Positions 13,260-19,532 of a DNA stretch of 64,000 nucleotides are shown here, piece by piece. This DNA comes from Coprobacter tertius (lineage in GTDB: Bacteria > Bacteroidota > Bacteroidia > Bacteroidales > Coprobacteraceae): contig NZ_JANDHW010000007.1 of the NCBI RefSeq assembly GCF_024330105.1, positions 1 through 64,000 of the forward strand, read 5' to 3'. The notes under the pieces are model-generated. The model did not search any database, was not told the origin of the DNA, and worked only from the letters and a program-made list of their open reading frames with translations. Position numbers and translations under genes: made by a program. Numbering within the stretch: position 1 is the first letter of the stretch; each line of letters opens with the position of its first letter.

Positions 13260-14006
13260 TTACCGTTTTTTGCGTACAATAATATAAATCGGATGATACG
13301 TTAGCGGTACACATCCGTTTACTTCATATTTAATTTTATAATTTTTTATCAATCTATTTAGTTGTTCCCTCGTTTTTAATGTTGTTTTCGTACCATTCAC
13401 TCCCGTAAATTTCAGATGGTAAAAGACCTCTTCGGGAGACGAAAACCAAAGTGTATAATATTCTTCAGAAATATATAGTATATCATATACGGCAGATAAT
13501 TGCTGTTGCCATTGCGAAAGCGATATGTAGTTCAATGCGCGCTCTCCTATGGAATTGGATAGTTCATGCAGATTTTCGGGACCAAAAGTACTGAAAGCGA
13601 TTAAACCATTTTTTGAAATAGACGAATCGAGCCGAAGTATATAAGATATTGGATTATCGAACCACTGTAAAGAAGAACTGCTGACTATCATATCGAATAA
13701 CCCTGTTAAAGTCATCGTTTCTGCATCTCCCGGATAAAAAATTATGTTATCGGGGAGAAACTTAGAGACATCCGGACATATATCGATCGCAAAATATTCA
13801 CAATTACAAAAGAAGTGTAGTAACTTTCTGGTGAGCAAACCTGTTCCACAGCCAATTTCAAATATTCTTTTCCTTTCACTATTTTCAATTCCGATAATCT
13901 TTTCGGCCAATTTCTCCGCAACTTTTATTTGTATTTGAGCATGATCGTTATAACTGTTTAAAAAACGTCCGAAAGATTTTACAACCCTGTGTTTAGATGT
14001 ATTCAT
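13260..14006 (-). CDS. bioC: malonyl-ACP O-methyltransferase BioC
   Basis: A 248-residue class I SAM methyltransferase with EIGCGTG at 50-56, DICPD as the second acidic motif and DMIVSSSSLQWFDNP, which is typical of BioC. It methylates malonyl-ACP so that fatty-acid synthesis can build the pimeloyl chain. The start overlaps the bioG stop by 4 nt, and bioD follows after 2 nt. Assignment to BioC rather than another methyltransferase rests mainly on the operon and on the SSLQW motif. Confidence 0.92.
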   Translation of the reverse strand: MNTSKHRVVKSFGRFLNSYNDHAQIQIKVAEKLAEKIIGIENSERKRIFEIGCGTGLLTRKLLHFFCNCEYFAIDICPDVSKFLPDNIIFYPGDAETMTLTGLFDMIVSSSSLQWFDNPISYILRLDSSISKNGLIAFSTFGPENLHELSNSIGERALNYISLSQWQQQLSAVYDILYISEEYYTLWFSSPEEVFYHLKFTGVNGTKTTLKTREQLNRLIKNYKIKYEVNGCVPLTYHPIYIIVRKKR

Positions 14007-14650
14007 ATTTCTAACATAAGTTTAAAGAAATCGGTATAATGATATATCGGTTTTACAATTATATTATTACAATCATTTTCCCATGCTCTGAGTTGGCATT
14101 CATAAGGGAAAATATGATCATCACTGCCTATGATTACTTTATCCCAGGGATATTTGAATACCGGGGTTCTGTAAATTCGGTCTCCAATGACTTGAAGCTC
14201 TTTTTTAATATCTTCTATGCTCCGTTGTGGATGCAAAGAGTTATATACTGAGACTTTTTCCTTATTACCACACATACGAAGATTAAATTTTATCAGTGAA
14301 TTTTTATTTAACCCCTTTAAGGTTGCATCGAAGATATCAGCGGATATCCCTTTTTCGTTATCAATAGGGAACATGGTTCCGTTTATCGCTATTCTTTTTC
14401 TAACCGGTAAAGTAGAATTTCGTAAATATAGTGCAGCATGCCAAACCCCCAATGACCATGCGTATATATCGATATGAGTATAGGAATCGAATATTTCCGA
14501 ATTGAGATGCATGTCAGTATAATCATAACAAATACAACAATCATTAGTAATATTCCGCAACGAAATAAACGGATGTATATCCATTCCCCAACCGGCGAAA
14601 AATAAAGTTAGCCTAGGAGTATTATTTTTATTAATAAATGTGTATTTCAT
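14003..14650 (-). CDS. bioG: pimeloyl-ACP methyl ester esterase BioG (DUF452)
   Basis: A 215-residue alpha/beta-hydrolase-like protein of the DUF452/BioG type. The N-terminal LTLFFAGWGMD and the nucleophile segment YAWSLGVW (Ser66) are the usual signature. BioG removes the methyl group from pimeloyl-ACP methyl ester and so stops chain elongation, the job BioH does in E. coli. It overlaps bioF by 20 nt and bioC by 4 nt, so translation of the three is coupled. Confidence 0.9.
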   Translation of the reverse strand: MKYTFINKNNTPRLTLFFAGWGMDIHPFISLRNITNDCCICYDYTDMHLNSEIFDSYTHIDIYAWSLGVWHAALYLRNSTLPVRKRIAINGTMFPIDNEKGISADIFDATLKGLNKNSLIKFNLRMCGNKEKVSVYNSLHPQRSIEDIKKELQVIGDRIYRTPVFKYPWDKVIIGSDDHIFPYECQLRAWENDCNNIIVKPIYHYTDFFKLMLEI

Positions 14651-15797
14651 TTTTATCTAAATTTTTCATTAGCGATAACAATTTATCTATTTCATTTTCT
14701 GTACAGGCGGCCGTTAAAGATATCCGTAATCTCGACGTACCTTCGGGCACAGTAGGAGGTCTAACCGGTAATATATAAAATCCTTCTTTTTGAATTTCTT
14801 TTGCATACAAGGAACAGCGATGGGAATCTCCGATTATAAAAGGGATTATGTGAGAAAAACTACAATTATTTTCTACACATTCATTAAATACGGTGTGTAC
14901 TTTTATACTTAGATTATTCAAATACATTCTTTCTTGTTTCATTTCAACTGCTTTATTCAACATATATAGGCTCCATCGTAAATTTACAGATGGCAATGCA
15001 GTTGAAAATATAAATGAACGTGCTGTATTAATTAGAAAGTTACGTTTTTTTTCATCACAAACAACATAAGCTCCGTAAGAAGCGAGGGCTTTACCAAAAG
15101 TCCCAATTAAAAAATCAATATTCGGAATTACATTTTGCTCTTCTGCGCATCCTAATCCATTTTTTCCTCTTACACCCACAGCATGAGCTTCATCAACATA
15201 TAGAACAATGTTATCATATTTATTTTTTAATTTCACTAAAGCTTTGAGATCAGAAATGTCTCCATCCATGCTATAAATACTTTCGACAACAATTACAATA
15301 ATATCATAATTATTAAATTCCCGTTCCACAATGCTATTTAAATGATTCAGATCATTATGTTTAAATCGAATACATTTAGCTTCGGATAAACGTATGCCGT
15401 CGATAATACTGGCGTGCACGAGTTTATCTGCTAAAATCAAAGACCTACGAGTTGTTATAGCTGGTAAAATTCCGATATTAGCATGATATCCACTGTTAAA
15501 TAATAGAACCGCACGAGAATAATATAATTCAGATAACCTGTTTTCCAGCTGTCTATATTCTATAGAATTACCGGTAAGTAAACGAGATGACGAAGATGCA
15601 AATTTAGTTTCCTTCCGATCAAAATCTTTGTTCGAATAAAAAGATGAAGCCAGTCCGAGATAATCATTCGATGAAAGATTTAACATACATCTGTTTTCTA
15701 CATAAACATATTTTCCCTCTATTTTCAATTCAGGAAGCACTCGTAAATTCCCTTTTTTTTCTATTTTATTTAAGCGGTCGGCTAAAAAATCAATCAT
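14631..15797 (-). CDS. bioF: 8-amino-7-oxononanoate synthase
   Basis: A 388-residue fold-type I PLP enzyme that joins pimeloyl-ACP and alanine to give 8-amino-7-oxononanoate. Conserved features are NDYLGLA near 44-50, VDEAHAVG at 201-208, and the PLP lysine Lys236 in GTFGKALASYG. The length is normal. It begins one base after the bioA stop and overlaps bioG at its end. The operon position separates it from the related 2-amino-3-ketobutyrate ligase. Confidence 0.95.
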   Translation of the reverse strand: MIDFLADRLNKIEKKGNLRVLPELKIEGKYVYVENRCMLNLSSNDYLGLASSFYSNKDFDRKETKFASSSSRLLTGNSIEYRQLENRLSELYYSRAVLLFNSGYHANIGILPAITTRRSLILADKLVHASIIDGIRLSEAKCIRFKHNDLNHLNSIVEREFNNYDIIVIVVESIYSMDGDISDLKALVKLKNKYDNIVLYVDEAHAVGVRGKNGLGCAEEQNVIPNIDFLIGTFGKALASYGAYVVCDEKKRNFLINTARSFIFSTALPSVNLRWSLYMLNKAVEMKQERMYLNNLSIKVHTVFNECVENNCSFSHIIPFIIGDSHRCSLYAKEIQKEGFYILPVRPPTVPEGTSRLRISLTAACTENEIDKLLSLMKNLDKNEIHIY

Positions 15798-15798
15798 A

Positions 15799-17082
15799 TT
15801 ATTTTTGCTTTTTTACTACACATAATAAGGCATTCGTAAGAATAGAAAGCTGTTCGGACGTAATAATATAGGGAGGCATTACATATACCAATTTGCCAAA
15901 AGGCCGAACCCAAACACCCAGCTCTACAAATTGTTTTTGTATCGTTGCCATATCTACGGATTCTTTCATCTCTACAACGCCAATAGCACCCAAGACACGA
16001 ACATCGGCAACTTGAGGGAATTTTGCGATGGGGGCTAACTCATTCCATAATTGAGTTTCAATAGATTTTATTTTCGATTTCCAATCATAAGAAAGCAATT
16101 CTTCTATCGATGCTTTTGCGATAGCACAAGCTAAAGGATTCGCCATAAATGTAGGTCCGTGCATAAATACTCCAGGTACTCCCTGAGATAAAGCTGTGGC
16201 AATATTGTCGGTTGCCAATGTCGCTGCCATTGTCAGATACCCTCCGGTGAGTGCTTTACCGATACACATAATATCAGGAGTAATGCCAGCGTGTTCACAC
16301 GCAAACATCTTTCCCGTGCGGCCAAAGCCTGTAGCAATTTCATCTACAATTAGTAACACTCCAAATCTATCACATAATTCACGCGCTTTTACCAGAAACT
16401 CAGGATGATAAAAACGCATACCACCTGCACCCTGTACAATTGGTTCTAAAATAAGAGCAGCTAATGTATCAGCATTTTGTTCGAAACATTCTGTTAAAGG
16501 CTCGATACAATCTTTTTCCCAAATATCTACATAACGACAAGAAGGAGATGGAATAAAAAAACGTTGGGGTAGTGTGTTACCAAAAATCGAATGCATTCCT
16601 GTTACAGGATCGCAAACAGACATCGCATTCCATGTATCACCATGATACCCGGAGCGAATAGTCACAAAGTTCTGCTTTTTATACTTTTTTTTACTGTACC
16701 AATATTGTATAGCCATTTTAAGTGCAACTTCAACCGAAACAGAACCCGAGTCACAATAGAAAATTTTTTCAAGTCCCAGAGGTACAAGAGACAGGATAAG
16801 TTTACCCAACTCCACTGCCGGACGATGGGTTATGCCACCAAACATCACATGTGACATACTTTTAAGCTGGACATTTGCAGCCTTATTCAGACGAGGATTA
16901 TTATAACCATGAATAGCGGCCCACCAAGACGACATCCCGTCTATTAAACGTTTTCCATTCGATAATTCAAGATAAACTCCTTCTGCCCGTATGATCTCAT
17001 AAACCGGTAGAGGCTGTTCTGTCGATGTATAAGGATGCCACAAATGTTCTCTATCGAAATATAAAATAGCTTCGTTTGTCAT
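15799..17082 (-). CDS. bioA: adenosylmethionine-8-amino-7-oxononanoate aminotransferase
   Basis: A 427-residue class III aminotransferase that makes 7,8-diaminopelargonate with SAM as amino donor. HLWHPYTS at 13-20 and [13 protein letters not shown] at 48-60 are BioA signatures; [12 protein letters not shown] (246-257) and Lys276 in [12 protein letters not shown] hold PLP. The ATG overlaps the bioB stop by 4 nt (ATGA). Confidence 0.96.
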
Positions 17083-18053
17083 ATTTCATCTGTTAAAATG
17101 TAACCAGCATGCTGAAATAGCTTTTTATCTTCCTCTACTTTAGAACTTATCGTAGTAAGCATATCTCCTGTAATGGCCGAATTTATTCCGATCTTTAAAG
17201 CCTTTTCCTGTAGTGATTTTGACATAATTCCTCGTCCACCGGCAAAACGTAATTTTGCCATAGGATGTATAAAACGAAAAACGGCGATAGTAGTAAGAAC
17301 ATCTTCTTCGCTCAGAGGTGGCATATTTTCAAGTGGTGTCCCAGAAATAGGTTGTAACACATTTATAGGAATAGAAGTCACATTTAATTCTCTTAAACTG
17401 AAAGCCAATTCGATTCTTTGTATCATAGTTTCACCCATGCCTATAATTCCTCCCGAACATATTTCCATACCCGTTGCACGGGCTGCACGAATCGTTTCAA
17501 TTTTTTCTTCTTGAGAATGAGTTGTACAAAGTGTTGGAAAATAAGAAGCTGCTGTTTCGAGATTACAATGATAACGGGTTACTCCCGAATCGTATAATTT
17601 TTGTAATTCTTCTTTATTTAATAATCCCAAAGATGCGCACAACGAGAGCTTGGTTTGTTTGCCTATAACACGATATATATTACAGATTTCATTTAAAGTT
17701 CTTCCAGATACTTTACGTCCGCTCGTTACTAAAGAGAATCGTTTAATACCAATATTTTCATTGTGAATAGCCTGGCGTAAGCATGTTTGAATATCGAGTA
17801 GAGGATACGTCTCAATTTTTGTATTATGATGTGCCGACTGAGCACACCATTTACAATTTTCGGGACAGCTTCCCGAACGAGCATTAATAATTGAACAGGT
17901 ATCAAAAAATCTGGATCCGAAATGTCTGGTGATTTCACCTGAAGCTTGGTATAACTTATCTTTATCCGTTGTTTCTGATAATTGAACTGCTTGGTCGAAT
18001 GTAATGCATTTTCCTTCAAGTACCAATTTCTTAAATTTTTCTATCATAAGCAT
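17079..18053 (-). CDS. bioB: biotin synthase (radical SAM)
   Basis: 324 residues from the ATG at 18053 (MLMIEKF). An ATG two codons later at 18047 is equally possible. The longer frame from 18161 is rejected because it would read through a terminator hairpin and give a non-homologous N-terminus. Cys63, Cys67 and Cys70 in CPENCKWC bind the SAM 4Fe-4S cluster; [17 protein letters not shown]-type and later motifs provide ligands for the 2Fe-2S cluster that donates sulfur. It is the first enzyme gene of the operon, 16 nt after the leader hairpin. Confidence 0.96.
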
Positions 18054-18068
18054 TTTATTAAAATAAAA

Positions 18069-18110
18069 AGCGACAGATGATTGATTTCTAATTATCAAGC
18101 ATCTGTCGCT
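18069..18110 (-). terminator. terminator/attenuator hairpin ahead of bioB
   Basis: Minus-strand perfect 11-bp stem AGCGACAGATG / CATCTGTCGCT (arms 18100-18110 and 18069-18079), 20-nt loop, then TTTTTATTTT. It starts one base after the stop codon of the upstream small gene and ends 15 nt before the bioB ATG. In form it is an intrinsic terminator lying inside the bio transcript. Confidence 0.75.
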
Positions 18111-18111
18111 T

Positions 18112-18438
18112 CTAAAAAATATAAAAATATTTGCATAAACAAACATCCTTGGAAATATCAAATCTCGTAATTATTTCAGATTTTTCTTCCAGAATAATTA
18201 TTTCCGGACAGAAAAAAGCCGGATCGGTAAATTCTGAGTTTTCTTCAGTAAAACAAGTAAACGTAATATACTTTAAAGAAATACTTATCGGTTGCTTTCT
18301 TAATGAAGCTTCGATAATACTTTTACAGACAGTCCCTATATTTACACACTTTCCGATACTGCAGAATGCCGCAAAACGACTACGACTCCATCTGCGAAAT
18401 CTTAATTTATAATATGTAAATAATATTTTATTTTGCAT
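18112..18438 (-). CDS. small leader gene of the biotin operon, function unknown
   Basis: A 108-residue basic, Cys-rich protein (about eight Cys). Its N-terminal half reads LRFRRWSRSRFAAFCSIGKCVNIG. I recall similar R-W-S-R-x-x-(Y/F)-A-x-F-x-S-(L/I)-G-x-x-V-x-I-G motifs in short Bacteroidetes proteins near vitamin-related genes, but I know no function. The gene has a good -7 box 24 nt upstream, the minus strand continues straight into bioB, and its TAG stop touches the hairpin at 18110. It could act as a leader peptide, a biotin-linked small protein, or both. The opposite-strand frame 18131-18412 lacks such a motif. Confidence 0.6.
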   Translation of the reverse strand: MQNKILFTYYKLRFRRWSRSRFAAFCSIGKCVNIGTVCKSIIEASLRKQPISISLKYITFTCFTEENSEFTDPAFFCPEIIILEEKSEIITRFDISKDVCLCKYFYIF

Positions 18439-18446
18439 TATCTGTT

Positions 18447-18460
18447 AGTAGTTACCTACT
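18447..18460. repeat. inverted repeat at the bio operon start site
   Basis: AGTAG-TTAC-CTACT, 5-bp arms, directly downstream of the -7 box, so it spans the expected transcription start of the leader gene. It could be an operator or a 5'-end hairpin. Confidence 0.35.
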
Positions 18461-18461
18461 G

Positions 18462-18469
18462 CAAATATA
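18462..18469 (-). promoter_or_regulatory. -7 box of the leader gene/bio operon
   Basis: Minus-strand TATATTTG, 24 nt before the leader gene ATG. This is the only good -7 match upstream of bioB; none is seen between the leader gene and bioB. Confidence 0.55.
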
Positions 18470-18590: not shown

Positions 18591-19532
18591 ATGAAATTAT
18601 TTCGCAATATTATTACTTTTATCATTACTTTTTTGTTTCTCTCTCAGGGAGTCGAAGCTGCTTCTCCATCTGATTTTTTTAAAAAGAAAAATGAAAACAC
18701 AGAAAACGAGGAACTTTCAGTTGAAGAAATTTTTATGCGGACTAATTTTAGTACAGAAAATTGTCTTTTATGGCCAATAGGAAAAACATTTATTCATGTA
18801 GGAAATAAATTGGGGTTAACTTTACGCCCCGATACTTTACTACCTGATAAGGAAATATCTTATAAAGATAAAATATTTACTTATAAAGGATCCCGAGATG
18901 AGTTGATATTCGGATATATGCCCTCTGTAAATCTTATTTTTGAGTGTGATGGGATTATATATAAATATGAAAGCAGAAAAAAACGTCAGGAGATGGAACG
19001 ATCGACATACCGCCCATTGATTCCGGATTTAGTGCCTGTTTCAGAAATCGAACTTGCTAAAAAATTACTCATCGGAAAAACATTATATATAAAAACATCT
19101 TTATGGTATAATGCGAATGGTAAAGAAATAAACGGATTTAAAATGGTTCCCGTCGTCATAACCGACATATTACCTGGAACAAATGTTCTTCCCATACAAT
19201 TTGTATTTAAAACAACTGATGAAAATGAAGGTCGTGTTTTCGGAGTTTTGTCTCCGGACGGCATTGCTGGGGAATTTATAACATTCGATCAATTATTTAC
19301 ATTTGAAGATCCTAAAAACAAATATAAAGATATATCAGAAGAAATGTGGGATTCGATTACCCAATCTAAAGTTAAAAAAGGGATGACTCAACAAGAGTGT
19401 CGTTTGGCTATCGGGAAACCGGCTGATATAAGACAATATCTCACGACAATGGGACTCCGGGAAGAATGGTTTTATAAAACCGGTGCATATTTATTATTTG
19501 AAGACGGCATATTGAAAAATTTTAGACAATAA
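18591..19532 (+). CDS. exported protein with a C-terminal BamE/SmpA-like domain
   Basis: A 313-residue protein with a signal peptide (MKLFRNIITF core, cut near VEA-AS at about residue 24), so it is exported. The middle is beta-rich and not recognised. The last 65 residues contain VKKGMTQQECRLAIGKPADIR, then EEWFYKTGAYLLFEDGILKNF: the pattern of BamE/SmpA domains, where a helix pair with GMT and GKP precedes a beta-sheet. Without a lipobox Cys it is probably periplasmic rather than a lipoprotein. murB starts 16 nt downstream on the same strand. Confidence 0.7.
   Translation: MKLFRNIITFIITFLFLSQGVEAASPSDFFKKKNENTENEELSVEEIFMRTNFSTENCLLWPIGKTFIHVGNKLGLTLRPDTLLPDKEISYKDKIFTYKGSRDELIFGYMPSVNLIFECDGIIYKYESRKKRQEMERSTYRPLIPDLVPVSEIELAKKLLIGKTLYIKTSLWYNANGKEINGFKMVPVVITDILPGTNVLPIQFVFKTTDENEGRVFGVLSPDGIAGEFITFDQLFTFEDPKNKYKDISEEMWDSITQSKVKKGMTQQECRLAIGKPADIRQYLTTMGLREEWFYKTGAYLLFEDGILKNFRQ

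Follow-up and report, generated by a model that had tools for sequence, protein, structure and literature searches.

A probable nascent-peptide transcription attenuator shared by biotin synthesis genes and a TonB receptor family in Bacteroidales

Why should an intrinsic terminator stand a few bases ahead of bioB, directly behind a small gene that is read in the same direction? This question is raised by a locus of Coprobacter tertius within the first 64,000 nucleotides of contig NZ_JANDHW010000007.1, the whole stretch of DNA that was analysed and is referred to here as the window. The first-pass annotation had described the arrangement as the layout of translation-coupled attenuation, in which a ribosome finishing the small gene would keep the terminator from forming. 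The locus was compared with its relatives throughout the Bacteroidales. Its features, in coordinates of the window, are as follows.

13260..14006, minus strand: bioC (TIGR02072, above cut-off)
14003..14650, minus strand: open reading frame between bioF and bioC, BioG-like by eye, no NCBIfam match
14631..15797, minus strand: bioF-like gene (best NCBIfam match TIGR00858, 364 bits, cut-off of 426 not reached)
15799..17082, minus strand: bioA (TIGR00508, above cut-off)
17079..18053, minus strand: bioB, biotin synthase (TIGR00433, 397 bits, cut-off 225)
18068..18111, minus strand: intrinsic terminator hairpin with a 12-bp stem (folding, comparison with relatives)
18112..18438, minus strand: leader gene of 108 codons encoding an RWSR-type peptide (open reading frame; relatives at the same place)
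18211..18252, minus strand: leader residues 63-76, an acidic stretch, FTEENSEFTDPAFF (charge profile of 59 leaders)
18325..18402, minus strand: leader residues 13-38, the basic core that is conserved, RFRRWSRSRFAAFCSIGKCVNIGTVC (alignments, codon analysis)
18462..18469, minus strand: candidate -7 element of a Bacteroidales promoter serving leader and biotin operon, TATATTTG (match to TAnnTTTG)

The open reading frame between bioF and bioC possibly encodes a pimeloyl-ester hydrolase. For bioB, homologues favour the start codon at 18047 over that at 18053 (MIEKFKKLV.. vs MIKKLKDKV..). A divergent gene of 313 aa with no Pfam match lies at 18591-19532 on the plus strand; its position next to the leader is conserved within the genus and also in genome G025 (L002-L005).

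The leader starts at ATG 18438 and stops at TAG 18114-18112. The 5' arm of the hairpin, AAGCGACAGATG (18111-18100), abuts this stop codon with zero gap and is followed by a loop of 20 nt (18099-18080) with an inner TTGAT/ATCAA stem, by the 3' arm CATCTGTCGCTT (18079-18068) and, after the stem, by the T-rich tail TTTATTTTAATAAA (18054-18067). The first-pass annotation had correctly placed a perfect stem and a T-run beside the TAG, but had read 11 bp at one base from it, where we find 12 bp. The closeness of bioB was likewise seen correctly; the distance, given as 15 nt, measures 14 nt to ATG 18053 or 20 nt to ATG 18047. On folding, the region 18130-18040 reached -27.1 kcal/mol, compared to -11.9 ± 2.6 for shuffled sequences (z -5.9). 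Our terminator scan was limited to loops of 3-8 nt and missed this 20-nt-loop hairpin. A repeat element was considered and rejected, as the exact sequence of the arm is found nowhere else in this genome.

The sequence TAnnTTTG has been reported as the -7 consensus of Bacteroidales promoters (PMC7366714). Between 18030 and 18900 on the minus strand it occurs only at 18469-18462, upstream of the leader, in agreement with the earlier view that the leader is preceded by the only good promoter; with about one match per 1.2 kb expected by chance, the promoter call is a tentative one. The 14-20 nt between the hairpin and bioB contain no -7 element and are too few to hold a second promoter; the first-pass annotation had likewise seen none there. 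No family for the leader was found in Pfam, NCBIfam or Rfam. A match to ATP-synt_C (E 0.07) was under the cut-off and was taken as chance, and the Rfam scan of the window returned a tRNA only, with no known riboswitch or RNA family at the leader.

Within the genus, three genomes yielded a copy of the leader reading frame, in each case ahead of bioB. Each of these leaders carries a terminator at its 3' end, and the hairpin sequences are unrelated. In two of them the reading frame spans the entire hairpin and its stop codon overlaps the bioB start (ATGA), while in the third the stop comes after the T-run; the species of the window, with its stop just upstream of the hairpin, is atypical. Identity within the genus is 65-81% in the core of the leader and 28-49% in the tail.

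The core has the consensus FRRWSRKxYAxFxSLGxxVxIG. Two profiles built on it matched 120 (A2) and 136 (A3) of 295 Bacteroidales genomes, which bears out the earlier impression that the R-W-S-R gene is conserved; these genomes are related, so such counts are not independent events. Across the phylum, 9 of 392 genomes were matched, six of them Bacteroidales, with one other strong match. We classified the next gene for 93 matches, corresponding to 91 distinct loci once two re-fetched ones were removed. In all 91, the peptide is either encoded immediately upstream of bioB, bioA or a member of one TonB receptor family, or forms an in-frame fusion with it. A second set, collected by peptide patterns and partly overlapping the first, comprised 42 named loci, 22 at bioB, 20 at the TonB receptor and none elsewhere, in genera including Parabacteroides, Phocaeicola, Odoribacter, Butyricimonas and Breznakibacter. 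No orphan copy was found among the 91 classified loci or in the second set. The peptide thus occupies the cis position of regulatory nascent peptides, which is a statement about position and not about action. Its presence ahead of bioA and TonB receptor genes and its fusion to proteins (53 TonB and 10 BioB fusions in the pooled set) extend the picture beyond the first-pass annotation.

A leader at bioB or bioA is found in 40 of the 295 Bacteroidales genomes, and in four genomes both the bio genes and the receptor have a copy of their own. In G025, G109, G193 and G259 the leader precedes bioA, and bioB lies elsewhere without one. G250 (L206:3036-5473) carries tandem copies at one TonB receptor, a separate leader and then a fused one, with no strong terminator between the two. 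At L138 (G183), the RWSR-TonB gene is seemingly broken by a stop codon. A link to riboflavin or murB at L007 was discarded, the next gene on the same strand being the TonB receptor (locus classified as L021). The peptide was not detectable in 25 of the 66 genomes encoding BioB (for 16 of these, inspection of the sequence upstream of bioB also revealed no core), nor in about 40 members of the TonB family, and the module is therefore dispensable.

In the first set, a terminator with ΔG ≤ -12 was found at 38 of 44 separate leader ends. The corresponding counts were 8 among 264 dinucleotide shuffles, 1 among 32 junctions between bioB and bioA within these operons, and 2 among 46 genes with a fused peptide. 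In the enlarged set, 53 of 59 distinct separate leaders had a terminator of ΔG ≤ -10 overlapping or abutting the end of the reading frame, as in pyrBI of E. coli, and in the remaining six none was detected by this measure. Nearly all separate leaders thus end in a strong intrinsic terminator whose 5' arm has to be covered by any ribosome that reads as far as the stop, and the attenuation layout proposed earlier holds well beyond the window. Two of the gaps between terminator and gene are long (240-270 nt).

The distance from residue I34 of the core to the start of the hairpin is 228 ± 21 nt (MAD 11), whereas the standard deviation is 61 nt from I34 to the stop codon and 56 nt to the target gene. 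The hairpin distance is less variable than either (Brown-Forsythe p = 2e-5 for the stop and 1e-3 for the target), and the same holds for 49 non-redundant leaders. It is 226 ± 23 nt at bioB, 239 ± 6 nt at bioA (three loci) and 235 ± 10 nt at the TonB receptor (eight loci). The comparison of regions upstream of bioB suggested in the first-pass annotation therefore confirmed that the leader is kept, but the constant spacing is that from core to hairpin, not that from stop to hairpin. Relative to the stop codon, hairpins start between -305 and +13 nt, so that all 53 begin no more than 13 nt past the stop, a distance within the leading edge of the footprint of a terminating ribosome. In 34 of 53 cases, even the T-tract starts no further downstream than the leader stop. 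Most hairpins lie within the leader frame, which had not been noticed before, and their sequences differ among leaders. An ordinary gene-end terminator would not be placed in this manner. Upstream of the hairpin, pairing with the 5' arm did not exceed chance (mean z -0.3), giving no sign of an antiterminator.

We then consider what the targets have in common. BioB is encoded in 66 of the 295 Bacteroidales genomes, including all 40 with a leader at bio genes (one BioB is cut by a contig end). Where the peptide lies at the TonB receptor, BioB is absent from 93 of 99 genomes. The mostly single-copy TonB family is present in 12 of 66 genomes with BioB and in 125 of 229 without it (Fisher p = 1e-7, without phylogeny correction). 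In G019 and G089, RWSR-TonB and bioB share one locus. The receptor is BtuB-like, but reaches only 134.7 bits with TIGR01779 (cut-off 599.7), and does not qualify as the vitamin B12 receptor BtuB by this measure. BioY was found in 1 of the 295 genomes. Because the family is rarer where BioB is present, shares loci with bioB and scores far below the B12 cut-off in an order where BioY is rare, we regard it as a candidate outer-membrane receptor for biotin; this ligand is the likeliest, and BtuB-like homology by itself does not point to a ligand.

A linked inner-membrane biotin transporter was not found as a rule: BioY is nearly absent, and sodium/solute symporter genes adjoin RWSR-TonB in two genomes only (L182:5726-7180, between bioB and the receptor, and L186:2080-3429). 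These symporters are not general neighbours and are possibly inner-membrane biotin transporters. At L196:5058-5570 (reverse), a small membrane protein encoded after RWSR-TonB resembles by eye the S component of a vitamin transporter. The BirA protein of the window genome has 242 aa and is catalytic only, without a DNA-binding domain. None of the 66 genomes with BioB has a BirA repressor domain above cut-off, and the domain was therefore dropped as a feature dividing genomes with and without leaders.

Taken together, we consider it probable that leader and hairpin form a cis-acting, translation-controlled attenuator of transcription, working through a nascent peptide and serving biotin supply throughout the order. 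RNA polymerase would start upstream of the leader. A ribosome reaching the end of the leader would unfold the terminator's 5' arm or cover it, allowing polymerase to continue into bioB. If the ribosome halted, slowed or dropped off past the core, which would act as a nascent peptide, the terminator about 76 codons further on would fold and transcription would stop. Where the core is fused to the TonB receptor or BioB, halted translation would itself shut off the target; fused forms would need no terminator, since interrupted translation would block the target directly, and 44 of 46 fused genes have none. The signal is likely to be biotin or a biotin-derived molecule, with abundance meaning off; the sign, translation interrupted when biotin is abundant, is one that we infer from physiology.

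The same attenuator might answer to another signal, such as a different vitamin, or a state of secretion or of the ribosome common to these genes. The ligand that homology leaves open and the position of the fused peptide ahead of a signal peptide would suit this reading. However, bioA and bioB are targets in different genomes, which makes the biotin pathway the common factor, and both the depletion of the receptor family in genomes with BioB and its low score as a B12 receptor speak for biotin. We therefore rate a different signal as rather unlikely.

In an attenuator of the pyrBI style, the closeness of ribosome and polymerase, set by translation or the nucleotide state, would decide alone and the sequence of the peptide would be irrelevant. 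This explanation calls for terminators that lie within the leader frame or at its close, and precisely this was found. However, conserved residues of the core are encoded by all synonymous codons, with mixing equal to the background (codon entropy). Selection therefore acts on the peptide, as in regulatory nascent peptides, rather than on a hidden RNA. Moreover, the core is kept at the N-terminus of BioB and TonB proteins with no terminator behind it. Attenuation without peptide sensing is thus improbable. We give no better prospects to a small protein acting in trans, as a repressor or membrane regulator co-transcribed with its targets, with the terminator setting its ratio to BioB. A conserved gene of 95-150 aa in many genomes is what such a protein would lead one to expect, but the classified loci include no orphans, genomes with two targets can hold two copies (G089, G202, G279, G295), the peptide is fused ahead of TonB signal peptides and BioB, and the distance from core to hairpin is kept although the tail is unconserved. 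AlphaFold gave no confident fold for the leader (pLDDT 39, from an alignment of six sequences only), a result of little weight. An ordinary gene end, with bioB under its own promoter, is hardly tenable: hairpins after genes are common and that of the window does come after the stop, but no promoter fits into the gap before bioB, the T-tract so often starts at or before the stop, and the hairpin tracks the peptide core instead of the stop.

The attenuator that we favour, based on a nascent peptide, combines traits of several known systems. In pyrBI of E. coli, the leader frame ahead of the first gene likewise contains an intrinsic terminator or ends in one; there, UTP is the signal, a closely following ribosome prevents the hairpin, and sensing does not depend on the sequence of the leader peptide. 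In contrast, the RWSR core is conserved, has its hairpin at a fixed distance and also forms the N-terminal part of fusion proteins. Attenuators of the his/trp type have a series of codons for the amino acid under control, together with a competing antiterminator hairpin; in the RWSR module, no antiterminator pairing was detected and the product is a vitamin, not an amino acid. Arrest on TnaC relieves Rho termination, whereas RWSR leaders have intrinsic terminators, which would be overcome once translation is completed. Both TnaC, which senses tryptophan (PMC8429421), and ErmBL, which senses macrolides (PMC4935803), resemble RWSR in being leader peptides conserved in amino acids ahead of genes tied to the sensed compound; the RWSR core, however, lies at residues 13-48 with 50-100 residues to follow. 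MgtL is a leader with acidic residues (an EPDP motif at its start), and whether termination occurs before the nutrient gene behind it depends on its translation; it senses Mg2+, is Rho-dependent, and drop-off turns the gene on (PMC11282234), while drop-off in RWSR would switch the target off. Arrest peptides of the Sec/YidC pathway, including Bacteroidota uORFs before secDF, also control the next gene through a conserved motif (PMC10987492, where biotin is not mentioned). In the secDF uORFs, the motif is C-terminal and the genes concern secretion, whereas RWSR has its core near the N-terminus, biotin genes and an intrinsic terminator behind. BirA, BioR and BioQ, the only three repressors of biotin genes named in a review (PMC11089781), govern synthesis or uptake genes as RWSR would, but are DNA-binding proteins.

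It is quite possible, though somewhat less likely than not, that the RWSR chain itself is the biotin sensor. It would then halt the ribosome in response to ample biotin, or to a molecule derived from it, would be portable among leaders, BioB and the outer-membrane receptor, and would replace protein repressors in Bacteroidales. The core is rich in K and R and nearly devoid of acidic residues, and a stretch with 34-38% D/E follows 30-40 residues past I34, equally placed in separate leaders and in TonB fusions; in the latter, it may be part of the mature N-terminus of the receptor. The ribosomal tunnel holds about 30-40 residues. This matches the distance between core and acidic stretch, and the core would therefore emerge from the ribosome while the acidic stretch is being made. 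As described for MgtL (PMC11282234), such stretches are able to make ribosomes slower or less stable; by analogy, this one is a lead for a ribosome-slowing element.

Attenuation by a terminator in the leader (pyrBI) and sensing by nascent peptides (TnaC, Erm leaders) are already known. In the open-licence literature, we found no description of an RWSR peptide or a biotin attenuator, and no system combining a nascent peptide with an intrinsic terminator at a fixed distance from its core. A module common to genes of vitamin synthesis and probable uptake, and occurring as an N-terminal fusion as well, appears to be new. Bacteroidales are a dominant order of the gut, and control of their genes for biotin (vitamin B7) was undescribed in the open-licence papers found. 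The RWSR module would give nearly half of the sampled Bacteroidales genomes a predicted repressor-free biotin switch, and names a candidate outer-membrane biotin receptor for an order almost wholly without BioY. With dozens of natural leaders at hand, peptide, terminator and spacing can be separated for testing.
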